Assembly (NCBI GenBank): GCA_947174785.1
Contig: CAMWKG010000005.1
Span: forward strand, 1-64,000
DNA length: 64,000 nt
Reading direction: 5' to 3'
Source: an uncultured Mollicutes bacterium
GTDB taxonomy: Bacteria; Bacillota_I; Bacilli_A; Acholeplasmatales; Anaeroplasmataceae
The position numbers and the translations under genes were made by a program. The notes below the pieces were generated by a model that did no database searches, was not told the origin of the DNA, and saw nothing but the letters and a program-made list of their open reading frames with translations. Positions 2,062-17,635 of the stretch are shown in pieces (positions within the stretch are counted from its first letter, which is position 1; each line of letters opens with the position of its first letter).

Positions 2062-2089
2062 TAGACAATTTTCTTTTTTCTTGTATAAT
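2062..2089 (+). promoter_or_regulatory. Promoter of the six-gene 2.1-11.0 kb operon
   Basis: TAGACA (2062-2067), 16 bp spacer, TATAAT (2084-2089), then a short leader and AAAGGAG before the ATG at 2135. No other credible promoter is visible inside the tightly packed cluster downstream. Confidence 0.6.
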
Positions 2090-2134
2090 AGAAGCTAAAG
2101 AATAATGTAGAGAAATGTTGAAAGGAGTACGTAT

Positions 2135-3577
2135 ATGATAAAAAAACTTGTTTTTGATTTAGATGGTACCCTTTGGAAAACAGAAGAATCTTATTTATAT
2201 GCTTATCGTAAATTACAAAATCAATTTCATTTGAAGCCTTTAACAGAAGATCAAATTCTTTCTGTTTTAGGTGTGGAATTGGCTGATGTTAGAAATATTA
2301 TATTTGGTACATATGAAAATGCAGATGAATTAACAATGCTTGCATTAGCGTATTCTATAGAATACATTAAAGAAAACCCATCTTTGTGTTCAGAGTATAT
2401 CCTTGAGATATTTGAGCAATTATATAGTAAATATGAAATCTATATTCTATCTGGATGTCCTAAAGCCTATTTGGACACATTTTTAGAAATATCAAAGCTT
2501 TCACAATTTATAAAAAAGGGATATACGATTGAAGATGGTAAAAAAACAGATATATTAAAAGAATTATCTCGCTTTGAAAAGGTGGTTTATGTTGGCGATT
2601 CACCTAAGGATTATGAGGTGATAGAAGACCATCAAAGCGTTTTTTTTTGTTATGCAAAATATGGTTATTTTAAGGTGGATACATATGATTACTTTATAGA
2701 CTGCTTAGAAGAACTTCCTGCCTTAATGTCTGAGCTAGATAAGAAAGAACAAATGCTTCAATCCCATTCTTATGAAATAATTAGCTATAAGGACTCTAAT
2801 TTAACCTTGATATATAAAGAAAATGGTTTATGCTATTTTGGTTTTTTAAATGTGGGTGAAATAGAAAATTTTAAAAAGGTATTACATAGATTAAAGAACA
2901 AATGTAATGTAGCATTTGGGCCTTTTAATGGAAATACATGGTACTCCTATCGAATCCCATTAGATTCTTTTGATTTTAAGTTATACCCAGATTGCATAGG
3001 AAATGAAGAAGTATATAATGCTTTTATTGAGTCTGGTTTTTCTGTTTATTCTACTTATAGCTCAACCCTGGCACCTATTTTCGAACGTGTTTGGAATCGT
3101 TGTAAAAAGGTTAAAGCTCCTCAAGGAATTCGCTTTAAGGTTTTACATAATCAAGAGTGCTATATGCATTTACAGGATTTATTTTCTATCGCAAGTATTG
3201 CCTTTCAAAGGGCAGACTTTTATGAGCCAATTTCTTTTGAATGCTTTAAAGATATCTATTTGAAAAATATAGAATTGGTACAACCAGATATCCTGTTGAT
3301 TTATGATGAGGAAAAACCAATCGCATTTAATTTCTGTTATGAGGATTTAGAAAAAAGGTTTTATGTCTGCAAAACTACTGCAATTCTTCCGGACTATCAA
3401 AACAAAACGATTTTAAAGCTTTTGATAGATAAATCCTACCAGATGATGGTAGATAAAGGATATAAAGAGGTATTGTATCATTTTCAAAATGACAGAACAA
3501 AGGTTCTAAATGGCATTTTTAAAAATGGCATTATACGTCAGAAAAAGTATGGAGTGCTACGATATGAGAATAAATAA
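2135..3577 (+). CDS. HAD phosphatase fused to a GNAT-like domain
   Basis: A 480-residue protein. Residues 1 to about 200 are a haloacid-dehalogenase-type phosphatase: motif I FDLDGT (nucleophile D8, general acid D10), motif II serine in ILSGCPKAY, and motif IV VGDSPKDYE. Residues about 330-480 look like a GNAT acyltransferase fold (IAFNFCYEDL, then LPDYQNKTILKLLIDK where acetyl-CoA would bind). The phosphatase-acyltransferase order recalls FkbH-like enzymes, but the motif I context differs, so no such function is assigned. It is the first gene of the operon and overlaps the next by 14 bp, arguing for a joint pathway. The substrate is unknown. Confidence 0.7.
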   Translation: MIKKLVFDLDGTLWKTEESYLYAYRKLQNQFHLKPLTEDQILSVLGVELADVRNIIFGTYENADELTMLALAYSIEYIKENPSLCSEYILEIFEQLYSKYEIYILSGCPKAYLDTFLEISKLSQFIKKGYTIEDGKKTDILKELSRFEKVVYVGDSPKDYEVIEDHQSVFFCYAKYGYFKVDTYDYFIDCLEELPALMSELDKKEQMLQSHSYEIISYKDSNLTLIYKENGLCYFGFLNVGEIENFKKVLHRLKNKCNVAFGPFNGNTWYSYRIPLDSFDFKLYPDCIGNEEVYNAFIESGFSVYSTYSSTLAPIFERVWNRCKKVKAPQGIRFKVLHNQECYMHLQDLFSIASIAFQRADFYEPISFECFKDIYLKNIELVQPDILLIYDEEKPIAFNFCYEDLEKRFYVCKTTAILPDYQNKTILKLLIDKSYQMMVDKGYKEVLYHFQNDRTKVLNGIFKNGIIRQKKYGVLRYENK

Positions 3578-4634
3578 TCAGACTTGTACACGTTGTGTTA
3601 ACGATAAAACAATTAAGCATATTCATTTTGATAAAAAAGGAGTTTGTAATTTTTGTAATTCCTATGATAAGCTTTCCTCTGTGTTAGAAAATCAAGACTA
3701 TTTAGATCGGCTATTTCAAAGTAAAATCAAGGATCATTCTCATACCTATGATGTAGCCTTAGGCTTTAGTGGTGGTAAGGATTCTACATACGTTCTTTAT
3801 CAACTGGTTCATAAATATAAACTAAAGGTTATTACCTATACCTTAGATAATGGTTTTTTATCTGACGAGGCAAAAAAGAAGATTGATAAGCTAGTAAAGG
3901 AGCTTGGGGTTCCTCATGAATATGTAGCCTGTGATATGGAGCTATTGAAGGAAATGTATAAGGTCATGGTAGAAAAGTATTTATCCCCTTGTATTGCCTG
4001 TTCCTTTTTAGGCTATGCTGTGATGTTAAACTATGCAACAAAGGTGGATGCTGCCATTGGAATACATGGAAGAAGCCGTGCCCAAATGTTTCGTAATTAT
4101 GCAGAGGATGTAGATGATGTGTTTAAACCCTTTATTGAAGAAGGATTAAAGGAAATTCCTAAGCCTATGAATGAGCTTGTATACACGATTTTAGATAAAA
4201 TAGAAAGATTAGTACATCCTTCTTTAGCTAAAATGATAAAAGAAAATCTTTTAAAGGAAGGCTTAGAACAAGGCTTTAGAGAGTTCGTTTCTTTCTTCAT
4301 CTATCATACCTATGATAAGGATGAAATCCTTCAGACCTTAATTCAAAATACTTCCTGGCGAGTGGAAAGTGAAGAAGAGCATTTTGATTGCTTAATTCAT
4401 CATGGTGCACTTTATCTAAAAGATCAAATTGCTAGAAGAAGCCATCTTATGCCTGAATATAGTTATCTTATAAGAAATGGACAAATGACCAAAGAAGAAG
4501 CTTTAAAGGCATTGGCATATGTTCACAATAAAAAACAAGCAAAACTAGAGTTAAAGGGTCTATGTCAATATGCTAAGATTTCTTATCCTAAGGTTATGCT
4601 GAAAGCATTCATTTATAAAAGGAGATGGTGGTAA
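3564..4634 (+). CDS. PP-loop ATPase, N-acetyl-sugar-amidotransferase-like (PseA/WbpG family)
   Basis: A 356-residue protein. It opens with a zinc-finger-like CxxC pair (CTRCVND and CNFC about 20 residues apart), then a PP-loop SGGKDST that adenylates a carbonyl group, and later a CIAC motif. This is the layout of the N-acetyl sugar amidotransferase family, which uses ammonia from a glutaminase partner to convert a carbonyl to an amidine. No HisH/HisF-like partner genes lie nearby, so another nucleophile or substrate is possible. GGAG at 3551-3554 supports the start at 3564 rather than an in-frame ATG at 3510, which lies well inside the previous gene. Confidence 0.7.
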   Translation: MRINNQTCTRCVNDKTIKHIHFDKKGVCNFCNSYDKLSSVLENQDYLDRLFQSKIKDHSHTYDVALGFSGGKDSTYVLYQLVHKYKLKVITYTLDNGFLSDEAKKKIDKLVKELGVPHEYVACDMELLKEMYKVMVEKYLSPCIACSFLGYAVMLNYATKVDAAIGIHGRSRAQMFRNYAEDVDDVFKPFIEEGLKEIPKPMNELVYTILDKIERLVHPSLAKMIKENLLKEGLEQGFREFVSFFIYHTYDKDEILQTLIQNTSWRVESEEEHFDCLIHHGALYLKDQIARRSHLMPEYSYLIRNGQMTKEEALKALAYVHNKKQAKLELKGLCQYAKISYPKVMLKAFIYKRRWW

Positions 4635-7438
4635 TGGTATTTTTCAAACGCTATATCGTTTTACTTTTTGAAATCCTTCTTTTATATACGGCTTGTTTAG
4701 CTAGTACTTTATTTAAAGTGCCATTTTTCACTGAAACTCTATATGTGTTTTTACCTTTTTTCTATATGATTCGTGTGTTAGATGATATTTTAGATTATGA
4801 TAATGATTTAAGAAACAATAAAGCTCCATTAGTTAAAGAGGTCCTTTATCCTTTGGCAATTTTCTTATTCTTGAGTGTGGCTGTTTTGATTAGTGTATTT
4901 CAGCTTTGGTATTTATTTTTACTCTTTGGATTAGTAATCCTTTTTGTCTTTTTCAAAAAAATTTCTATCTTTGCTAAGCTATTACTCTTACCAGCTGCCT
5001 ATAGTTTATTTATATATTATAATTTTAGATTTGAAATCGCAAATATTTGCATGCTGGTGCTATTTTTAATTTTATCTATTCTTTATGCACTTTATAAAAA
5101 ATTAAATCAGGTTTCTTTTTATGAGGAATATAAGGAAATAAATAGCATAGGTGGAAAAGCTTATCATCTAGGGTATGCGAAGGTAAAAAACACGCCAGCC
5201 TATTTCACGATTCCCACTGAATTTTTTAGAGATTTAGAAAAAGAGGAAAAAGGCTTAGAAAGCTTAAAGAAAAAAATTAATTCCTTTTGTAAAAATAATG
5301 AGCTTTATGCAGTACGTTCCTCCGCAATAGATGAGGATTCTTTGCATCATAGTTTTGCAGGAATTCATGATACAAAGCTAAATGTCAAAAAAGAAGATGT
5401 ACTAGCTTCAGTTTTAGAGGTATATAAAAGTGCCTTTACACCACTTGCTATAGAGTATAGAAAAACTTGTGGGCTTCCGATAGAACAGATTTCTATGGCT
5501 GTTGTTGTGCAGAAAATGATTGCAAGCCCAGATTATTCTGGTGTAATCTTTACAATGAATCCGAAAACGGATAATCCTGATGAGTTTATGATTAGTCTTG
5601 TAGATGGACTAGGTGAGGATTTAGTAAGTGGAAAAAAGGATTCAAAGGATTATTTTATTTCTGCAAAAGAGATAAAAGGAGATTTGTCTTTTATTTCTGT
5701 AAAAGTATTAAAGAAATTAGAAAGACTTGCTTACAAGCTACAAAAAAGATATGATGCTTTTTTGGATATCGAATTTACAATCCAAAAAAACAAAATTTAT
5801 TTTTTACAAGCTCGTCCAATTACCACTTATGCAGATATTCATCCCTCAGAAAGAACTCTTTTCATTGATAATTCCAATTTGATAGAATCCTATTATGGGA
5901 CCACATCATTCCTAACCCAAAGCTTTGCAAAAAGTATTTATCAAGGAGTCTATACTAAAACCTTAGAGGCAGGGCATATTCGAAAAAAGGTTATGCTTTC
6001 CTTAGAAGATACTTTAGAAAATATGCTTTATGCTTATGAGGGAAAGCTGTACTATAATTTAAATAGCTGGTATCATTTGACAAGTATTTTCCCTATGAAG
6101 TCTTCAGCCTCATATATGGAACAGATGATGGGCGTGGGAAGTGGAACAAAGTCATATAAGAAAGTGAAATTGAATTTACTGGATATGCTTAAAATCGGAG
6201 TTTGCTTTATCCATAGACTACATACTATGGACAAGGCATCGAATGCATTCATTGAGAAATTTAATCAAGTTGTTTTACCTTATTATGGGCATACATTAAC
6301 TGGTACAAATGAAGAACTCATTTCCTTATATCATCAAATAGAAGCAGATATATTATCTGATTTTGCAACACCAATATTAAACGACTGTGCCGTTATGTTT
6401 TATAATGGTCGTTTAACCAAGAAAATAAAAAGAAAGTATAAGGAAAGATATACAGAAATATTTGCTTCCTGTATTCATTCTAATGGCACTATGGAAAGTG
6501 CTAAGGTATGCAAGGAATATGATGATATTTTAAAGTGTATTAAAGAAGATGAAGAAATATTTAAAGACTTTAATGATTTAACCCCTGATGAGCTTTTCAG
6601 AAAATACCATTCCAAAGATTTAGAAATATCTAGGAAAATAAGGGAGTATATCCTTCATTTCGGTTCAAGAGTGATGAATGAGCTTAAATTAGAAACTGTT
6701 ACAATGATTGAAAATCCTGTGCTTCTTTATAAGCAAATTAAGGAAGGACTAGCCTTTGCTCAGGAAACAAAGGTGGAACAACCTTTTTTAGATATTCCAA
6801 AGAAGCTACGAAAGCTTGCAGATAAGACAAGATATTATATTGTGAATAGAGAACGTCTTCGATTAAAAAGAACATATATTTTTTCAGTGGTTCGAAATAT
6901 CTTTTTGGCTATAGGCAGGAATTTGGAAAACGAAGGGAAGCTTGCATCTGCGAGAGATATTTTTTATCTGACGAAGGAAGAAGTATTCTCATTACCAGAA
7001 CAGATTATAGAGCTTGTAAAATCCCGTAAGAAGGAAATGGAGTTTTATAACCAGCAACCCTATTATTATCGTATCAGTTTTTATCCTAAGCGTGTTTTAC
7101 CTGTAAAGATAAGTGCTTCAAATGAAGAGCTTAAGGGATTAAGCAATGGTAAAACTGTAATTCAGGGTACAGTATCTGTAATGAATGAAGTGACTGATCC
7201 TTTTACTCCTGGAACCATTATAGTAGCCTCAAGAACAGATCCAGGATGGATATCTTTATTTCCTTTAGCTAGTGGCTTGATTGTAGAGCATGGAAGTTTA
7301 TTATCTCATAGCTTTGTTGTTGCAAGAGAAATGGGACTTCCAGCTATAGTGGGTATCCCAAATATAACAACACTTTTGAAAACTGGGGATGTTGTAACCT
7401 TAGATAGTGTTAAAGGAGTGGTTCACATTGAAAAATAA
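4634..7438 (+). CDS. UbiA-like membrane domain fused to a PEP-synthase/rifampicin-phosphotransferase-like dikinase
   Basis: A 934-residue protein. Residues 1 to about 150 are hydrophobic with several membrane spans and an acidic RVLDDILDYDNDLR motif like the Asp-rich motif of UbiA prenyltransferases. Residues about 155-395 form a PPDK N-terminal ATP-grasp domain (YAVRSSAIDEDS, then FLQARPIT). A long middle part is followed at the C terminus by a PEP-utilising swivelling domain (SGLIVEHGSLLSH, with the presumed phosphocarrier His at about residue 892). The PEP-binding TIM barrel is absent, as in rifampicin phosphotransferase. AAAGGAG favours the start at 4634, giving a TAATG junction with the previous gene. 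A membrane-tethered dikinase of this form is unfamiliar to me. Confidence 0.7.
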   Translation: MVFFKRYIVLLFEILLLYTACLASTLFKVPFFTETLYVFLPFFYMIRVLDDILDYDNDLRNNKAPLVKEVLYPLAIFLFLSVAVLISVFQLWYLFLLFGLVILFVFFKKISIFAKLLLLPAAYSLFIYYNFRFEIANICMLVLFLILSILYALYKKLNQVSFYEEYKEINSIGGKAYHLGYAKVKNTPAYFTIPTEFFRDLEKEEKGLESLKKKINSFCKNNELYAVRSSAIDEDSLHHSFAGIHDTKLNVKKEDVLASVLEVYKSAFTPLAIEYRKTCGLPIEQISMAVVVQKMIASPDYSGVIFTMNPKTDNPDEFMISLVDGLGEDLVSGKKDSKDYFISAKEIKGDLSFISVKVLKKLERLAYKLQKRYDAFLDIEFTIQKNKIYFLQARPITTYADIHPSERTLFIDNSNLIESYYGTTSFLTQSFAKSIYQGVYTKTLEAGHIRKKVMLSLEDTLENMLYAYEGKLYYNLNSWYHLTSIFPMKSSASYMEQMMGVGSGTKSYKKVKLNLLDMLKIGVCFIHRLHTMDKASNAFIEKFNQVVLPYYGHTLTGTNEELISLYHQIEADILSDFATPILNDCAVMFYNGRLTKKIKRKYKERYTEIFASCIHSNGTMESAKVCKEYDDILKCIKEDEEIFKDFNDLTPDELFRKYHSKDLEISRKIREYILHFGSRVMNELKLETVTMIENPVLLYKQIKEGLAFAQETKVEQPFLDIPKKLRKLADKTRYYIVNRERLRLKRTYIFSVVRNIFLAIGRNLENEGKLASARDIFYLTKEEVFSLPEQIIELVKSRKKEMEFYNQQPYYYRISFYPKRVLPVKISASNEELKGLSNGKTVIQGTVSVMNEVTDPFTPGTIIVASRTDPGWISLFPLASGLIVEHGSLLSHSFVVAREMGLPAIVGIPNITTLLKTGDVVTLDSVKGVVHIEK

Positions 7439-8486
7439 GTATTTTAAAGAGCCAAACTACATCCACTACAGTAATTGTCATGAGGATGTTTTAAAGTTAA
7501 AAAAGTGTTTACCCCTTCATACAAAAAAGATTCTGTCTATTGCGAGTGCTTTAGATAACTCCTTAGCTTTTTTGGAAGATGATGAAGTAGAAGTTCTTGC
7601 GATTGATTCTAATCCAAGTCAATGCTATCTTTCTAAATTGAAAATTGCTGCCATTAAGCATTTATCTTACAATGAGTTTTTGATTTTTTTAGGCTTTAAA
7701 GAAGGAGATTCCTTAAAGCTGTATTCTACCTTGCAAGACCACATAGATGAAAAAACTAGAAAATATTTCGATGAACATTTGTATTTAATTGAAAACAAAT
7801 TAATCCATGCTGGACGCTTTGAATATTATTTTCATTTATTTCAAAACAAGATCTTACCACTGGTGGTTTCTAAAAGGAAAATAGAAAGATTTATGAATAT
7901 ATGCTCACTAGAAGAACAAAGGAAATATTATAAAAAGCATATCAATACGATTCGCTTTAAGCTTTTATTTCGCATCTTTTTTTCTAAGCATATGATGGCT
8001 AAGCTAGGTAGAGATAAAGCATATTTTAATTATGCAAAGGGCTCCTTAGCTAAGATATTAAAAGAAAGAGTTGATTTAGGTGTTTATCATAACCCGAATG
8101 CTTCTAATCCTTATCTACAGTATGCAATGCTTGGAAAATTTATGGAACTGCCCTATTATGCCAAAGAAGAGGCATTTGTTAAGATTAAGAAAAATATAGA
8201 TCATATTAAAGTACTATGTGAAACCTTTGAAACAGTTATTCAAAGTCAAGGAGATTTTGACTTTATGAATCTTTCTGATATATTTGAATATATGCCAGAG
8301 GATCTAACTCGTTATGAAAAGCTGATTCAAACCTCCTGTAACAACAATGCAAGAATTGCTTATTGGAATATGATGAATCCAAGGTATCTAAATGGATTTA
8401 AAAGAATCAATACTAAAGAAGATCTAAAAGAAGATCGTGCAATGTATTATCAAGATTTTCTTGTATACGAGGTGCATCATGATTGA
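7428..8486 (+). CDS. DUF3419 (BtaA-like) SAM-dependent 3-amino-3-carboxypropyl transferase family
   Basis: A 352-residue protein with the Rossmann-like nucleotide-binding pattern of DUF3419: NCHEDV near the N terminus, KILSIASALDNSLAFL (motif I), then EVLAIDSNPSQCYL, and a late DFDFMNLSDIFEYM segment. The family founder BtaA moves the aminocarboxypropyl group of S-adenosylmethionine onto diacylglycerol in betaine lipid synthesis. There is no BtaB-like methyltransferase here. The start is chosen as TTG 7428, nine bases after AAAGGAG; an in-frame GTG at 7407 has no ribosome binding site. It overlaps its neighbours on both sides. Confidence 0.75.
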   Translation: MKNKYFKEPNYIHYSNCHEDVLKLKKCLPLHTKKILSIASALDNSLAFLEDDEVEVLAIDSNPSQCYLSKLKIAAIKHLSYNEFLIFLGFKEGDSLKLYSTLQDHIDEKTRKYFDEHLYLIENKLIHAGRFEYYFHLFQNKILPLVVSKRKIERFMNICSLEEQRKYYKKHINTIRFKLLFRIFFSKHMMAKLGRDKAYFNYAKGSLAKILKERVDLGVYHNPNASNPYLQYAMLGKFMELPYYAKEEAFVKIKKNIDHIKVLCETFETVIQSQGDFDFMNLSDIFEYMPEDLTRYEKLIQTSCNNNARIAYWNMMNPRYLNGFKRINTKEDLKEDRAMYYQDFLVYEVHHD

Positions 8487-9762
8487 ACATTTTTTAAAAG
8501 AGATAAAGCCTGCAATAAAATATGTAAAACATCATAAAACCATATCTAGAAGCTTTAAAGAGTTTTATGTGGACATCTATAAAATGATAGGGCTATTTCA
8601 GAAAAAAGGTTTGAAACCAAAGGATAAGGTTGGATTATTTGTAATGCCTTATTCCTATGATTTTTATGTTGTTATGTTTGCCAGCTTTATATTTCAGTTA
8701 AACATAATTGTATTTGATTCTTATAGGAAGAAGCATATTCAAGAGCTAATGAATTTAGAAGAAGTTTCGTATTGCTTTGTGGATAAAAAAACGAAATGGA
8801 TCAGTCATTTTATTCTTCCAAGGTGTAAAAGAGTTGATATAACACCTTTTGCTAGATATCAGCCTCAATATGATTCAAATATAGCCACCATCTCTAATAC
8901 TATTATTTTGACAACCTTTACATCGGGATCTACAGGAACACCCAAAGCAATCCATAGAACTCTAGAGTTCTTGTTAGGTCAAGCTGAAGAAATTCAAAAT
9001 GAGATGGATTTAAATCCTATTACCTCTATTTTTGGAGGATTACCTATTTATAATATTTTATCTTTATATTTATTGAAAACCACTTGTATTTCTAAGCATA
9101 TTAAAGATATTTATAAGCTTCAGCCAGATTGCGTTTTAACAAATATACAAAAAATACTTTTAGAAAAAAGAAGCTATCCTATGATTCAAAATGTTATGCT
9201 AGGTGGTGCTATTTTATATTCTTGGGAAGTAAGTAAAATTAGAAATGTATTTCCCAATGCCAAGATAGCCTATGTTTATGGTGCAAGCGAAGGAGCTATA
9301 ATTTATAAAACGAATCTTGATTTTTATCAAGAAAATTTGTTTAGTTTTGAAAGGCCGGCAAATGAAATCAATGTATCAATTTCTAGCCCAAATAAAGAGG
9401 GAATAGGAGAAATTGTAATTGAGGGGGATCGAGTCAATACTGAAAACCACATACATTACACAGGCGACTTAGGTAAGATGAATGATGGAACGTTAATTCT
9501 TTTTGGAAGAAGGAAGTATTCCTCATTAGATCAAGGTTTTTATAATTATGCTTTTGATGAACAGATACGCAAGGAAAATCATTGTGTTGCCTTTAGTTTC
9601 TTTTATAAAAATGAAATCTATGTGTTTCATAACAAAAAGCTAAAGAATAAAAGAGAAGGTGTAAAATATATTTTTATGCGAAAGCTTCCTATGGATTTAA
9701 AACACAAAACAAAGCTGAGCTATCAGGAATGTATTGATAGAATAGAAAAAAGAATGAAATAA
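8479..9762 (+). CDS. AMP-forming acyl/aryl ligase (ANL superfamily)
   Basis: A 427-residue adenylate-forming enzyme. The P-loop-like TTFTSGSTGTPKA is at about residues 138-150, the A5-type motif VYGASEGA follows, and a YTGDLG segment with the downstream GRRKYSS hinge marks the start of the C-terminal lid. The enzyme activates a carboxylic acid as an acyl-adenylate and probably passes it to CoA or a carrier. It is shorter than typical acyl-CoA synthetases (about 500), so the lid domain is reduced. The ATG overlaps the previous gene by 8 bp. No acyl carrier protein gene is visible in the cluster. Confidence 0.75.
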   Translation: MIEHFLKEIKPAIKYVKHHKTISRSFKEFYVDIYKMIGLFQKKGLKPKDKVGLFVMPYSYDFYVVMFASFIFQLNIIVFDSYRKKHIQELMNLEEVSYCFVDKKTKWISHFILPRCKRVDITPFARYQPQYDSNIATISNTIILTTFTSGSTGTPKAIHRTLEFLLGQAEEIQNEMDLNPITSIFGGLPIYNILSLYLLKTTCISKHIKDIYKLQPDCVLTNIQKILLEKRSYPMIQNVMLGGAILYSWEVSKIRNVFPNAKIAYVYGASEGAIIYKTNLDFYQENLFSFERPANEINVSISSPNKEGIGEIVIEGDRVNTENHIHYTGDLGKMNDGTLILFGRRKYSSLDQGFYNYAFDEQIRKENHCVAFSFFYKNEIYVFHNKKLKNKREGVKYIFMRKLPMDLKHKTKLSYQECIDRIEKRMK

Positions 9763-9769
9763 AAATTTC

Positions 9770-9806
9770 AAGCATAGTATTAATAGGTGATACTATGCTT
9801 TTTTAT
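9770..9806 (+). terminator. Terminator-like hairpin enclosing the start codon of the MurC-like gene
   Basis: A perfect 10-bp inverted repeat, AAGCATAGTA (9770-9779) and TACTATGCTT (9791-9800), is followed by TTTT and further Ts. The loop holds the AGGTGA ribosome binding site and the 3' arm contains the ATG at 9795. It may terminate part of the operon transcript or limit translation of the last gene. Confidence 0.6.
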
Positions 9807-11033
9807 TTGATTGGAATCAAAGGATCAGCTTTAAGTGCTCTTGCAAAAATACTTATAAAACAAGGACATATTGTAAGAGGAGTAGATGTAGAAGAGGAAT
9901 TTTATACAATGAATTCTAAATACCCCATCCGTATAGAAAGCTTTTCTAATATGCAATTAAAAAATTGTTATTTCTATATTATAGGAAATGCATTTCTTAA
10001 ACACAGTGTTACAAAATACATTCAAAATATGGGATATAAATCTATGACATATCCTCAATTTTTGAATTATCATTTCCAGAATAAAAAATGGATTGGTATT
10101 TCTGGGACATCTGGCAAGACCACAACGACTAAGATGATTTCCACGCTGCTTCCTAATGCGACAAGTCTAATTGGTGATGGTTCGTCTACTTGCGAAAATG
10201 GACAATACTTTATTTTAGAATCTTGTGAATATAGGAATACTTTTTTGAATTATCATCCTTATATATCATTAATTTTAAATGTAAATTATGATCATATTGA
10301 TTTTTTCAAGACGAAGGAGGATTATGAAAAATCCTTTATTCAATTTGCAAAGCAAAGCAACATTTGTATCATCAACGGAGATGAATTTTCTTATCGTGCA
10401 GAAAATGTTATTACCTATGGTAGAAATGCTTTAAATGATATTGTCTTTACTTATGATAAGGGCAAGGTAACCATATTAAGAAAAATATTTGAATTACCTG
10501 TAATAGGATTAAAATATGCATATGATTTTGTTGGTGCATATCTTGCTGCAAAATTATGTAACGAAAGAGATCATATTATTCAAAGTAGAATTAAAAGCTT
10601 TGAAATGCCTAAACGAAGATTAGAAAAAACAGAAATAGGCAATCAATTGATTATCTCTGATTATGCACATCATCCTCAAGAAGTAGAAACTATTTATGAA
10701 ACCTTAGTAGAACAATATGGATCTAGGAAGAAAATCTGTATATTTGAGCCACATACGATATCCAGGTTGCAATGCTTTATCAAGGATTATAAAAAAGTGT
10801 TAAGCTTATTTGATGAATGCTATTTATACAGCTTATTTAGTAGTGCTAGAGAAACACACAACGTAGTTTTAGAAAAAGAACTTTACAAGGAATTAGGCTT
10901 TTCTTCTTATGATTATCCTACAAAGCAAAGACTAATAAATAAAGAAGATTGCATTATTTGTTTTTTAGGTGCAGGAACAATAGATAGAGCTTGTGAAGAA
11001 TACATAAAAGAATTGAATATAGCTAGGCGATAG
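9795..11033 (+). CDS. MurC-like Mur ligase family protein
   Basis: A 412-residue protein with all Mur-ligase parts. The N-terminal Rossmann region (IGIKGSALSALAKIL) resembles the GxGGxxMSGLA of MurC/Mpl, the ATP P-loop is GTSGKTTTTK (about residues 104-113), the central part has NVNYDHIDFF, and the C-terminal domain has ISDYAHHPQEV. Mur ligases form amide bonds between a carboxylate and an amino acid or peptide through an acyl phosphate. As the last gene of a non-peptidoglycan cluster it is probably a specialised ligase or recycling enzyme, not the essential MurC; this is inference. Its stop codon lies in the terminator. Confidence 0.75.
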   Translation: MLFYLIGIKGSALSALAKILIKQGHIVRGVDVEEEFYTMNSKYPIRIESFSNMQLKNCYFYIIGNAFLKHSVTKYIQNMGYKSMTYPQFLNYHFQNKKWIGISGTSGKTTTTKMISTLLPNATSLIGDGSSTCENGQYFILESCEYRNTFLNYHPYISLILNVNYDHIDFFKTKEDYEKSFIQFAKQSNICIINGDEFSYRAENVITYGRNALNDIVFTYDKGKVTILRKIFELPVIGLKYAYDFVGAYLAAKLCNERDHIIQSRIKSFEMPKRRLEKTEIGNQLIISDYAHHPQEVETIYETLVEQYGSRKKICIFEPHTISRLQCFIKDYKKVLSLFDECYLYSLFSSARETHNVVLEKELYKELGFSSYDYPTKQRLINKEDCIICFLGAGTIDRACEEYIKELNIARR

Positions 11034-11064
11034 TTTAGGAGTAGAACTATCGCTTTTCTTTTAT
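11027..11064 (+). terminator. Terminator of the six-gene operon
   Basis: GCGATAGTT (11027-11035) pairs with AACTATCGC (11045-11053), followed by a T-rich tract. The hairpin includes the stop codon of the MurC-like gene. Confidence 0.85.
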
Positions 11065-11104: not shown

Positions 11105-12436
11105 ATGAAAAAAATCATTGGTATCTTTTGTTTTATTCTATTAGGACTTTGTTTGGTTTCTTGTATGGAAGAACCCCCTATAGATAAACCTGATCAAGGA
11201 AATACAGAACCACCAAGTGGAGGTAAGCTGCCAGACGATGGGAAGGATGATACACCAAGTGTGGATAAGCAGCCAGATGATGAAAAGGATGATTGGGAAA
11301 AGAAAATTGTCTTTTGGCACACGATGGGCGATAGTTTACAAAAAGTTTTACAAGATGCAATTGATAGCTTTGAAAAAGCAAATGAAGGTTGGGAGATTGA
11401 ATCTGTTCAGTTTGGGAGTATGGATCATATTCTAGAGGAAACCATAAGTAATTCAAACAAGCCAGATTTGGTTTATGCCTTTCCAGAACAGGTTGCCAGG
11501 TATAAGGAAAAAGGTTTAATTGTTGACATGAATCATTATATTGAGGATGAAAATGTAGGCTTTAGTAAAGATGAAGTAGATGATTTTATAAAAGCATTTT
11601 ATGAAGAAGGAAAATCTTATGGCGATGGAGCAATGTACTCTCTACCATTTTCCAAAGCTTCTGAGGTTTTGTATTATTATAAAAAAGAAGCATCAGATTA
11701 TCCTAAAACATGGGAAGAACTAGAGGCTATAGAAGATTTAAATCATATAACACTTAGAGTGGAAAGTGAAGTATTGTTGTTTACAACGCTTGCTCATCAA
11801 AGTGGTGCAAATTATACTACTTTAGAAGATAATCATTATGTTTTTGATAATGAAATCAATAGAAAAAATGTTGAAATGCTGAAACGTTTGTATAATCAAA
11901 AAAAGCTGGTTACAGCAAATACATCTGCAAGCAGCACCTATAATAATAAATACCATTTAGCTTCTTCAGGAGCAGTTTATCGTTATATAACACTTAATAC
12001 TTTTGATGAATTACAGGTGGCTCCTCTACCAACATTTCGGGGTAAGGCTCGTAGAGTGCCATTTCAAGGACCATCTCTTTGTATGGTAAAGAAGCAGAGT
12101 GAAAAGCAATTGAAGACATGGGAATTTATTAGAGATTATTTATTAGATAGTAAATTTCAAGCTAAGTTTTCTATGTACTCTCTATATAATCCTGTACGCA
12201 AATCTGCTTATGAGGATGAAGATTACCTAGAGTGGTTAAAAACAGAAGAGGCTATTGCAAGTATGATAAATATTTGTAAATCCTATGAGGATGATTATTA
12301 CTTTAATCCACCTTTTATTGGGAGTGATAACGCAAGTAAGGAAGTAGGAAATATAATTGTTCAAGTTTTACTAGGGAAAAAGACAATAGATCAAGCCTTT
12401 AAGGATGCCTTAAAAAATTGTAATTCTTATAAGTAA
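11105..12436 (+). CDS. Extracellular solute-binding lipoprotein (ABC family 1), copy 1
   Basis: A 443-residue secreted lipoprotein. It has a signal peptide with lipobox LVSC (lipidated Cys at about residue 20), then a low-complexity Pro/Asp/Lys linker with an internally repeated PSxxKxPDDxKDD unit, then a bacterial solute-binding fold (IVFWHTMGDSLQKVLQDAID, later GPSLCMVKK). Such proteins capture sugars or oligosaccharides outside the membrane for an ABC importer. No permease or ATPase gene is adjacent. A TATAAT lies at 11077-11082. It is paralogous to the next gene, with a nearly identical 5' region, indicating recent tandem duplication. Confidence 0.85.
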   Translation: MKKIIGIFCFILLGLCLVSCMEEPPIDKPDQGNTEPPSGGKLPDDGKDDTPSVDKQPDDEKDDWEKKIVFWHTMGDSLQKVLQDAIDSFEKANEGWEIESVQFGSMDHILEETISNSNKPDLVYAFPEQVARYKEKGLIVDMNHYIEDENVGFSKDEVDDFIKAFYEEGKSYGDGAMYSLPFSKASEVLYYYKKEASDYPKTWEELEAIEDLNHITLRVESEVLLFTTLAHQSGANYTTLEDNHYVFDNEINRKNVEMLKRLYNQKKLVTANTSASSTYNNKYHLASSGAVYRYITLNTFDELQVAPLPTFRGKARRVPFQGPSLCMVKKQSEKQLKTWEFIRDYLLDSKFQAKFSMYSLYNPVRKSAYEDEDYLEWLKTEEAIASMINICKSYEDDYYFNPPFIGSDNASKEVGNIIVQVLLGKKTIDQAFKDALKNCNSYK

Positions 12437-12503: not shown

Positions 12504-13835
12504 ATGAAAAAAATTATCAGTTTCTTTTGTGTTCTTTTATTAGGACTTTGTTTGGTTTCTTGTAAGGATGAACCACCTGTAGATGATCCAAATCAGGGGA
12601 ATACAGAACCACCAAGTGGAGATAAGCTGCCAGATGATGGAGAATATACAGGAACTAAAAAAATTGTTTTTTGGCATAATATGAATTTGGGTAGGGATAT
12701 TCAAGAATTGCTTCAAGAGGCCATTCAGAAATTTGAACAGAATAATGATGGCTGGAAAATTGATTTAGTTTATTTTAATAATCTGGAAGAAATACTTGAA
12801 AAAACCTTAAAAGAAACCGATCAGCCGGACTATCTTGTTTCTGAAAAACCAGATTTAGTTTTTTCTACCTTGGAACATACAGCTAGGTATAAGGAAAAAG
12901 ATATCATTGTGGATATGAACGTTTTTATTAAAGACTCTGAAATTGGTTTGAGTAATGAAAAAATCAATGACTTTATTAAACCATTTTATGAAGAGGGAAT
13001 GGCCTTTGGAGATGGAGGGATGTATTGTCTTCCTTTTGCAAAGGCTGCAGATGTACTGTATTATTATCAAAATGATGGGGCTTCCTCTTATCCTAAAACA
13101 TGGGAAGAATATGACCGATTGGATCAATACCAGGATTCCCTTTTGGAAGTTGAAAGTGAAGGAAGGTTGTTTTCAAACCTAGCAAGACAAAGTGGAGCTA
13201 AATATACATCTTTGGATCAGGAGCATTATGTCTTTGATAATGAAAAAAACCGTTCTAACGTAGAGATGCTTAAACGTTGGTATGACCAGGGAAAACTTTT
13301 TACTTGGCAAAACTCAACAAAGCCAACCAAGAATTCTCAATATATTATAGCTTCCTCTGGAGCTTTTGACTTTTATAGATACACTACTGCATCTATTGGC
13401 CAATTAATGGCTGCCCCAATTCCGACATTTCAAGGGAAAAAACGTCAGGTTACTTTTTATGGACCTTCATTATGTATGTTAAAACAGCATTCTGTTAAAA
13501 TGAAACAGACATGGAAATTTATTAAGGATTATTTATTAGATGCTAAATTTCAAGCCGAATATTCTATGAGAGTGAGAGCCTTATATAATCCAGTATTAAA
13601 GTCTTCTTATGAACTTGATGCCTATAAAGAATGGTACAAGGAAGATGAACTACTTTCAAATGTGATTCAGATTTGTAAGCAGTATCTTAATGAATACATA
13701 TATAATCCCCCATTTGTTGGCAGTGATAATGCTTTAATAGAAACAGGTAGAATTATTATCAATGTATTAGATGACAAAAAGACAATTGATGAGGCATTTC
13801 AGGATGCATTAAAGAATTGTAAAGCTTATAAATAA
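12504..13835 (+). CDS. Extracellular solute-binding lipoprotein (ABC family 1), copy 2
   Basis: A 443-residue tandem paralogue of the preceding gene. It has the same signal peptide and LVSC lipobox and a shorter linker (one PSGDKLPDDG unit instead of two), then the same family-1 solute-binding fold (KIVFWHNMNLGRDIQELL, GPSLCMLKQ). Sequence divergence in the binding domain is greater than in the leader and linker, so the two may bind different ligands; alternatively gene conversion homogenised the 5' ends. It is followed by a terminator, then the glycosidase-like and MFS genes, which suggests carbohydrate scavenging. Confidence 0.85.
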   Translation: MKKIISFFCVLLLGLCLVSCKDEPPVDDPNQGNTEPPSGDKLPDDGEYTGTKKIVFWHNMNLGRDIQELLQEAIQKFEQNNDGWKIDLVYFNNLEEILEKTLKETDQPDYLVSEKPDLVFSTLEHTARYKEKDIIVDMNVFIKDSEIGLSNEKINDFIKPFYEEGMAFGDGGMYCLPFAKAADVLYYYQNDGASSYPKTWEEYDRLDQYQDSLLEVESEGRLFSNLARQSGAKYTSLDQEHYVFDNEKNRSNVEMLKRWYDQGKLFTWQNSTKPTKNSQYIIASSGAFDFYRYTTASIGQLMAAPIPTFQGKKRQVTFYGPSLCMLKQHSVKMKQTWKFIKDYLLDAKFQAEYSMRVRALYNPVLKSSYELDAYKEWYKEDELLSNVIQICKQYLNEYIYNPPFVGSDNALIETGRIIINVLDDKKTIDEAFQDALKNCKAYK

Positions 13836-16433: not shown

Positions 16434-17432
16434 ATGGCTAATACCACAATTTATGATGTTGCTGGAGCAGCAAAGGTTTCTTTAGCAACCGTGAGTAGAG
16501 TAATGAATAACCCTGAAAAAGTAAATCCAGAAACCAGAGAAAAAGTATTAAGAGTCATAAAAGAACTAGGATATCGTCCTAATGCTATTGCGCGTGGACT
16601 GGCTAGTAGAAAAACCACGACAATTGGTATTGTTTTGGCTGATGTTTCTAGATCTGCTACAGCTCAATTATTGGGTGGAATTCAGGATATTGCCAAGAAA
16701 TATGAATATTCTATAAAAATCTTTTCTATAGGAAATGATGAAGATATTACAGAAGCAATGCGTACAGTTATTGCAGAACAAGTGGATGGTATCTTGTTCC
16801 TAAATGATGAATTAGAAAAGGAACAAATGAAGATTGCTATGGATGCAATTAAGGATGCTATGATTCCAGTAGTTTTATCTAATGTATTCTATGAGGATGA
16901 GGATATTCCTTGTGTTGCAATCAATTATGAAAATGCAACCTATGAGATAACAAAACAGATGCTAGAATATGGCAGAAAGAATGTTTATTTATTTACAACT
17001 GCTAGAAGATATTCAGTGAACATACAAAAGGAAGTCGGCTATTTAGATGCAATGGAGGAAGCAGGCCTTGAGCCTAAGATTTTTAGAACAAGTGGAGATG
17101 TATCCATTAATTCTCTCCATTTTAAAGAATTCTTCCAAAACAATAAAATTGATGGAGCTATCGCTGTACGTGACAGTATTGCCATCAGCTTTATGAATGT
17201 TGCACAGGATCATGGAGTAAAGATTCCAGATGATATTTCTGTTGTTGGCTTACAAAATACAAAATATGCAATTTTATCACGTCCAACCTTGACATGTGTG
17301 GATACTCCGGTGTATGATATAGGTGCTGTTTCTATGCGTCTTCTAACAAAATATATGAAGCAAGAAGAAGTTGCACATAACAGAGTTTTATTACCATATC
17401 GTTTTATTAGACGTAATACTACAAATTCATAG
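16434..17432 (+). CDS. ccpA: LacI-family catabolite control protein A
   Basis: A 332-residue regulator. The LacI helix-turn-helix with hinge (TIYDVAGAAKVSLATVSRVM, then RPNAIARGLASRKT) is followed by a periplasmic-binding-protein-like effector domain. The spacing and hinge match CcpA, which with HPr-Ser-P represses or activates genes at cre sites in low-GC Gram-positives. It stands alone rather than beside one sugar operon. The start at 16434 has AGGTGG upstream; a GTG at 16419 would place the ribosome binding site inside the gene. A local LacI regulator for the preceding sugar genes is the alternative. Confidence 0.75.
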   Translation: MANTTIYDVAGAAKVSLATVSRVMNNPEKVNPETREKVLRVIKELGYRPNAIARGLASRKTTTIGIVLADVSRSATAQLLGGIQDIAKKYEYSIKIFSIGNDEDITEAMRTVIAEQVDGILFLNDELEKEQMKIAMDAIKDAMIPVVLSNVFYEDEDIPCVAINYENATYEITKQMLEYGRKNVYLFTTARRYSVNIQKEVGYLDAMEEAGLEPKIFRTSGDVSINSLHFKEFFQNNKIDGAIAVRDSIAISFMNVAQDHGVKIPDDISVVGLQNTKYAILSRPTLTCVDTPVYDIGAVSMRLLTKYMKQEEVAHNRVLLPYRFIRRNTTNS

Positions 17433-17439
17433 TTTTGAT

Positions 17440-17635
17440 GATGAGACCTTAAGTAGAATAAATTGTTTTTGTTTTAGAGAGTCTGTGGTTGGTGAAAACA
17501 GATCAAGGCATTTATTTGAAATACACTCTTGGAGAAACAAGCATTGAAGTGTCATAGCTTAAAGCTATGGAACTAAGGTGGTACCGCGGAAACTTTTCGT
17601 CCTTAGGATTTTATTCTTAAGGACTTTTATTTTTG
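17440..17635 (+). promoter_or_regulatory. Tyrosine T-box riboswitch with terminator
   Basis: The canonical T-box AAGGTGGTACCGCGG is at 17575-17589. The specifier loop carries TAC (Tyr) at 17522-17524 in GAAATACACT. The terminator GTCCTTAGGA (17599-17608) with TTCTTAAGGAC (17614-17624) and a T tract competes with the antiterminator containing the T-box. Uncharged tRNA-Tyr would permit transcription of tyrS. Confidence 0.95.

Follow-up and report, generated by a model that had tools for sequence, protein, structure and literature searches.

Near one end of a 64,000-nucleotide stretch of DNA from an uncultured Mollicutes bacterium of the gut, of the family Anaeroplasmataceae (GenBank assembly GCA_947174785.1, contig CAMWKG010000005.1, positions 1 to 64,000 of the forward strand; hereafter the window), six consecutive enzyme genes had been predicted to form a single unassigned operon. 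We show here that genes 1 to 5 (2135-9762) constitute one translationally coupled biosynthetic operon, a conclusion that is well supported, and that this operon is one form, termed type A, of a wider and undescribed cluster family. The core of the family consists of a UbiA protein, an RPH-like dikinase, a GNAT and an AMP-forming ligase, usually accompanied by a DUF3419 protein. As the five-gene set is inherited as a unit and its core recurs in unrelated bacteria, the operon probably makes a lipid-like molecule. We give an even chance to the more specific proposal that the operon and its relatives make an aminocarboxypropyl amino-lipid or a prenylated amino-acid metabolite by a pathway in which the sixth gene, murC, is uninvolved. 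The window lies on contig 5 of a metagenome-assembled genome (MAG) of 1.84 Mb that is 96% complete, and the genomes with which it was compared are mostly fragmented MAGs.

The six open reading frames (ORFs) all lie on the forward strand, at 2135-3577, 3510-4634, 4625-7438, 7407-8486, 8437-9762 and 9795-11033, and searches against Pfam and NCBIfam, by which domain families were assigned, bear out the six enzyme families of the original prediction, although not its six-gene unit, as gene 6 is inherited separately. The likely starts, chosen from putative ribosome-binding sites, are 2135, 3564, 4634, 7428, 8479 and 9795. Gene 1 (2135-3577) encodes a 480-residue fusion of a HAD phosphatase domain and a GNAT domain. 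Gene 2 (3564-4634), whose ORF opens at 3510 but has a better ribosome-binding site at the ATG at 3564, encodes a WbuX/PseA-like PP-loop enzyme with SGGKDS and two CxxC pairs. Gene 3 (4634-7438; the ORF opens at 4625 and AAAGGAG stands shortly before the ATG at 4634) specifies an RPH/PEP-synthase-like dikinase fused to a UbiA-like membrane domain of half size, gene 4 (7428-8486; the ORF opens at 7407, the TTG at 7428 behind AAAGGAG being the likelier start) a DUF3419 protein, the predicted S-adenosylmethionine (SAM) 3-amino-3-carboxypropyl transferase, and gene 5 (8479-9762; the ORF opens at 8437, the ATG at 8479 being likelier) a short AMP-forming (ANL) ligase of the AMP-binding family with the phosphate-binding, YGASE, TGD and C-terminal Lys motifs. 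With these starts genes 1 to 5 overlap by 14, 1, 11 and 8 nucleotides in turn; the overlap claimed for the whole run does not extend to gene 6, which begins on the same strand 32 nucleotides past the end of gene 5. The sigma-70-like promoter candidate TAGACA-16-TATAAT (2062-2089, forward strand) matches the consensus at 11 of 12 positions and is the best of its region, although that region is no richer in promoter-like sites than shuffled sequence (65 versus 66.7 ± 8.8). Composition gave no sign of a foreign island, GC being about 28-33% in the operon and about 30-34% around it.

The original prediction had named a lack of co-inheritance as one ground for refutation; genes 1 to 5 proved to be co-inherited. 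DUF3419 occurs in 7/55 genomes of the family, and in all seven the order of genes 1 to 5 is the same as far as the contigs reach, one contig ending inside gene 4 (G047) and another starting inside gene 1 (G045). An eighth genome (G043) has genes 1 and 2 and the start of gene 3 at a contig edge and, added to the seven DUF3419 carriers, brings the genomes with at least part of the operon to 8/55. Those eight all have gene 1, full-length or cut by a contig end, and a fragment of 82 residues at the edge of a contig in G017 brings the number to nine of the 55. That piece (L147:7529-7777), the HAD start of a gene-1-like protein in another genus, is possibly a further operon cut by assembly. More widely, DUF3419 was found in 7/160 genomes of the order and in 8/392 of the phylum sample, in which 150 bits was exceeded only by the three matches from the window's own genus. 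In the class sample the gene 4 alignment matched 17/395 genomes, eight of them above 300 bits; three of these eight lie outside the family (G527 and G600 of family f22, and G522 of family f14) and all three carry a cluster. The cluster counts leave aside the weak matches to DUF3419, of 30-51 bits, obtained in family f13. G527 and G600, which belong to another family of the same class, have the same genes as the window operon. The gene order is thus not a matter of chance.

Three types of cluster can be distinguished. In type A, found in Anaeroplasmataceae, G527 and G600, the genes encode HAD-GNAT, PP-loop, half-UbiA, dikinase, DUF3419 and AMP ligase. In genus g1 half-UbiA and dikinase form a single fusion protein, whereas in G035, G527 and G600 the half-UbiA has its own gene, for a protein of 156-157 residues. 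Type B occurs in G522 and on a plasmid of Roseinatronobacter sp. S2 (NZ_CP121116.1), bacteria of different phyla, in the identical six-gene order of UbiA, dikinase, DUF3419, polyprenol-kinase-like protein, GNAT and AMP ligase, the proteins of the two clusters being 30-40% identical. The polyprenol-kinase-like member, a membrane protein of 439-443 residues, bears the motifs RKxVHxGxG, DxxxAxxGxxYG and KSxEG, which we take to be dolichol/phytol-kinase signatures, and in Roseinatronobacter a gene for HMG-CoA reductase (PF00368, 3.8e-108) stands directly upstream of the cluster. Type C, comprising UbiA, dikinase, GNAT and AMP ligase, is present in G246 and, split over two contigs, in G310. Identities between the window and Roseinatronobacter proteins are 29% for the dikinase (8e-90), 30% for DUF3419 (1e-49), and 22% for both the GNAT (1.6e-11) and the AMP ligase (1.8e-12). 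In all ten Bacilli genomes with strong DUF3419 matches a UbiA or half-UbiA is directly upstream of the dikinase or fused to it. Outside the Bacilli the searches covered only plasmid records and viral contigs, and the spread of the cluster among other phyla is therefore a lower bound. In Deinobacterium chartae matches were obtained with both PF11899 and NF010118. On viral contigs alignment A2 gave five weak dikinase matches, and alignments A1 and A3 gave no match; a scan of genome contigs returned two loci, from close relatives only. Weak GNAT matches on Bacteroidota plasmids and a WbuX-like stretch in a Roseovarius nonribosomal peptide synthetase were set aside, as their neighbourhoods share no cluster with the operon. 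In G522 (L138:1-2003) the gene for the type B AMP ligase is directly followed, with an overlap, by genes for the ATPase and permease of an ABC transporter, which might export the product.

The N-terminal domain of gene 3 (4625-5119) is, by sequence homology, a UbiA of half size, which qualifies the earlier assignment to that family. Residues R50, D53, D54, D57 and D61 (numbered from 4625) are invariant in nine of nine half-UbiA rows, giving the pattern R50-xx-D53-D54-xx-D57-xxx-D61, and R50, D53, D57 and D61 match R63, D66, D70 and D74 of full-length UbiA, where the same R-xx-D-xxx-D-xxx-D spacing is kept in all four rows. Alignment of the half-UbiA with the full-length UbiA of the sister clusters in hhalign gave a probability of 90 (E 1.5e-6, 60 columns, score 47.6), whereas the controls, of which one was reversed and 15 were column-shuffled, scored 8.0-14.5. 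The full-length proteins match the models for EboC, archaeal GGGP geranylgeranyltransferase and PRK13592, and three of three match Pfam PF01040, whereas the half-size domain, with a single Asp-rich motif, is invisible to that model in the five examples tested; Pfam UbiA matches occur in 2/55 family genomes, neither of them an operon carrier. By the same simple method four to six helices are predicted in the half-UbiA, nine in two of the full-length rows and six in the other two. The dikinase part comprises PPDK_N (PF01326) and PEP-utilizers (PF00391), that is, an ATP-grasp and a swivel domain with the catalytic His (H895, numbered from 4625), and the swivel motif GS[ML]LSH is present in 12/12 dikinases. 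Its best profile matches among solved structures are PDB chains 5hv1-5hv3 (best E 2.5e-84), presumably of RPH type. In its ATP-grasp, variable middle and swivel domain it resembles RPH and the small-molecule dikinases phenylphosphate synthase, HpeHI and PigC, but in every cluster read the enzyme either forms a fusion with a UbiA-like membrane protein or directly follows one. Another pair recurs in Bacilli (L048, L075 and L077), with an RPH-like dikinase behind a protein of about 340 residues, which in L048 and L077 contains a YYFSAHD-like stretch.

The remaining enzymes of the operon retain most of the motifs expected of their families. Gene 1 matches HAD_2 and, weakly, GNAT; its HAD motif DxDGT is present in seven of the eight type A gene 1 proteins read, and the GNAT motif GPFNGNTWYSYR, common to the stand-alone GNATs of the sister clusters, in 9/11, the pattern missing G527 and G600. 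An FkbH-type HAD-GNAT was rejected, the HAD-IIIC model TIGR01681 scoring 17.5 bits, below its cut-off of 35.75. Gene 2 shares the PP-loop and paired CxxC with the WbuX/PseA N-acetyl sugar amidotransferases, and SGGKDS with paired CxxC is found in all nine PP-loop proteins; the gene differs from those amidotransferases, however, in scoring below the NCBIfam cut-off (TIGR03573, 140.4 bits against 203.2) and in belonging to an operon that holds neither a HisH/HisF-type partner nor sugar genes. TSG-xx-G-PK is conserved in 10/11 AMP ligases by a strict pattern, G246 reading differently. In type A the ligase is short and, by eye, lacks the usual A8 K-x-x-G stretch, and thus may stop at the acyl adenylate.

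BtaA transfers aminocarboxypropyl from SAM, ANL enzymes activate carboxylates and GNATs acylate amines, and from such family chemistry a putative order of steps can be proposed. The dikinase would charge its swivel-domain His from ATP, yielding AMP and Pi, and would phosphorylate a hydroxyl group on a substrate in the membrane, which the UbiA-like domain next to it would present. DUF3419 would then move the 3-amino-3-carboxypropyl group of SAM to this lipid or prenyl acceptor, creating a homoserine-type head group; the AMP ligase may activate a carboxylic acid, the GNAT domain and the PP-loop enzyme may acylate or amidate the head group, and the HAD domain may take off a phosphate. The expected product would be an amino-lipid bearing an aminocarboxypropyl group, or a prenylated amino-acid metabolite. 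Phosphorylation of hydroxyls through the swivel His is reported for dikinases of the superfamily (PMC12167813; PMC4844700). A lipid or prenyl nature is suggested by the UbiA, the kinase-like protein and the one HMG-CoA reductase, and the modified lipid or amino-acid lipid originally envisaged is a plausible product that gains some support from the sister clusters.

Several observations weigh against this pathway. No member of the cluster family has a known product or activity. The half-UbiA is devoid of the second motif (E-GRK-AP-E) and of the C-terminal half, and may not catalyse prenyl transfer. The type B kinase-like protein has no Pfam or NCBIfam match, its identity coming from the motifs named above, and HMG-CoA reductase accompanies one cluster only and has no match in the window's genome. 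The G035 homolog of gene 1 (L011:13943-15121) lacks the HAD catalytic motif while keeping the GNAT part. No PF11899 (DUF3419) match was found in G246 and G310, and aminocarboxypropyl transfer is therefore not universal in the family. For genes 4 and 3, AlphaFold models built from two and three rows only had mean pLDDT (predicted local distance difference test) values of 33.9 and 30.4, respectively, and were not used; gene 4 gave no meaningful match to solved structures.

It could be argued that gene 6 (9795-11033) also belongs to the pathway, as the original prediction supposed, its Mur ligase joining an amino acid to the product. The gene follows gene 5 closely on the same strand in the window and is close behind it in G045 and G046. 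The evidence, however, makes a six-gene pathway extremely improbable. Judged from its sequence gene 6 is a diverged MurC (TIGR01082, 206.7 bits against an NCBIfam cut-off of 335.1). The six Mur_ligase_M matches of the window's genome are gene 6, two MurE, MurF, MurD and FolC, with MraY and Ddl also present, and gene 6 is thus the sole MurC-type ligase of a genome that makes peptidoglycan. In the ortholog search gene 6 was detected at E ≤ 0.001 in 22/55 family genomes, a count that takes in at least one genome (G043) with merely a weak match to another Mur ligase. The ortholog is kept in the operon-less members of the genus G044, G049, G050 and G051, where the genes beside murC are neither those of the operon nor those that flank it in the window, and was not found by that search in the operon carrier G035. 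About 3.6 kb of what we read as sugar-metabolism genes separates genes 5 and 6 in G042, and in G048 gene 6 and the operon are on different contigs. Gene 6 is therefore a housekeeping murC, a bystander outside the operon with no part in the pathway. Nor was the terminator-like hairpin 3' of murC (11025-11055, forward strand) confirmed as the single terminator that had been claimed, since a second such hairpin, of 13 pairs with a T-run, stands between genes 5 and 6 (9770-9800, forward strand), just 5' of gene 6. This hairpin is conserved in G045 and G046, and a similar element precedes murC in the operon-less G049 and G050. The ATG of gene 6 lies in its 3' arm, and since the T-run also encodes Leu-Phe-Tyr of MurC the element may control translation rather than terminate transcription; translational control of murC is possible. 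At its loop is a ribosome-binding-like stretch, AGGTGAT. Without murC the pathway hypothesis is simpler and can be tested with five genes.

Other explanations take genes 1 to 5 as a unit and differ in the chemistry. If the pathway led to a betaine or homoserine lipid, gene 4 would be a BtaA, converting diacylglycerol to diacylglyceryl-homoserine, and the other genes would supply or tailor the lipid. Gene 4 resembles BtaA at the domain level, as originally proposed, with a DUF3419 domain over its full length that scores far above the Pfam cut-off (174.4 bits against 28.2), and its neighbour is membrane-anchored. Its identity to rhizobial BtaA is, however, 22-25%, and no BtaB N-methyltransferase adjoins it in the window operon or in any cluster read, unlike the rhizobial BtaA loci L117, L118 and L120 (L119 being alike in sequence). 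In a tree of 14 rows the BtaA proteins with BtaB formed their own clade (100/100), and the window, G522 and Roseinatronobacter DUF3419 proteins grouped at 89/95, below the star mark of the tool; by sequence, gene 4 thus appears to be not BtaA proper but a member of a separate DUF3419 clade, and we regard the betaine lipid pathway as unlikely. Less probable still is a detoxification or resistance operon, in which the dikinase would phosphorylate a drug and the other enzymes add inactivating groups. Among solved structures the dikinase is closest in sequence to the presumed RPH-type chains, and GNAT enzymes can inactivate drugs, but the dikinase scores far under the PigC cut-off and reaches only 180.7 bits with the RPH model NF041857 (cut-off 999), which places it outside the drug-inactivating RPH subfamily; moreover neither UbiA nor DUF3419, its constant partners, is a resistance gene. 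Catabolism of a phenolic compound, with a first phosphorylation step like that of phenylphosphate synthase or HpeHI, has a precedent in two-component dikinases of the superfamily that are reported to begin phenol and hydroxyphenylethanone catabolism (PMC12167813), and the AMP ligase could form a CoA ester. The operon, however, lacks genes for a carboxylase, a dehydrogenase or a ring-cleaving enzyme, the transfer of aminocarboxypropyl from SAM is an anabolic reaction and the partner is a UbiA, all of which leaves such catabolism with marginally less credence than resistance. A Rhizobium plasmid locus (L035) considered as a sister cluster was rejected, as its DUF3419 sits on a very long branch of unsure place and the cluster is a different one; this locus (L035:3808-10146) encodes KAS III, an oxidoreductase, a metallo-hydrolase, a CoF synthetase and the very diverged DUF3419.

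The amino-lipid or prenylated metabolite pathway can be extended to a more far-reaching and tentative proposal, which we hold possible rather than probable. UbiA proteins are two-fold pseudo-repeats in which each half contributes an Asp-rich loop, and it is from this architecture that the idea of a half-UbiA homodimer derives. On this proposal Bacilli and Alphaproteobacteria would share a conserved and undescribed membrane biosynthetic system whose obligate UbiA/RPH-like dikinase pair would make aminocarboxypropyl (homoserine-type) isoprenoids or lipids of a new class. The type A UbiA would have been reduced to a single half-repeat, with its one Asp-rich motif, joined to the dikinase, and would have to act as a homodimer or, instead of being a transferase, as a presenter of the prenyl substrate. 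A half-length UbiA always beside a phospho-His dikinase would bear both on the origin of UbiA enzymes and on the role of the large and mostly unassigned family of RPH-like dikinases.

The enzyme families are known, and the claim that the operon is unassigned is upheld: neither this enzyme combination nor a characterized cluster of the kind was described in the literature searched, coverage of which was partial, with most subscription journals outside it. The recurrence of one enzyme set, identically ordered, in a Bacilli genome and an alphaproteobacterial plasmid points to a common product, which seemingly has never been isolated. The ebo cluster (EboA-F) offers a parallel, being likewise a small operon round a UbiA-like protein, with an unknown product and spread across phyla; the other ebo genes are, however, absent here, and the available part of the ebo description includes no dikinase, DUF3419, GNAT or AMP ligase (PMC9235831). 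Elsewhere in the window, two adjacent and similar extracellular solute-binding proteins of 443 residues each are encoded at 11105-12436 and 12504-13835, and a T-box leader (RF00230, 102 bits) is located at 17429-17607.

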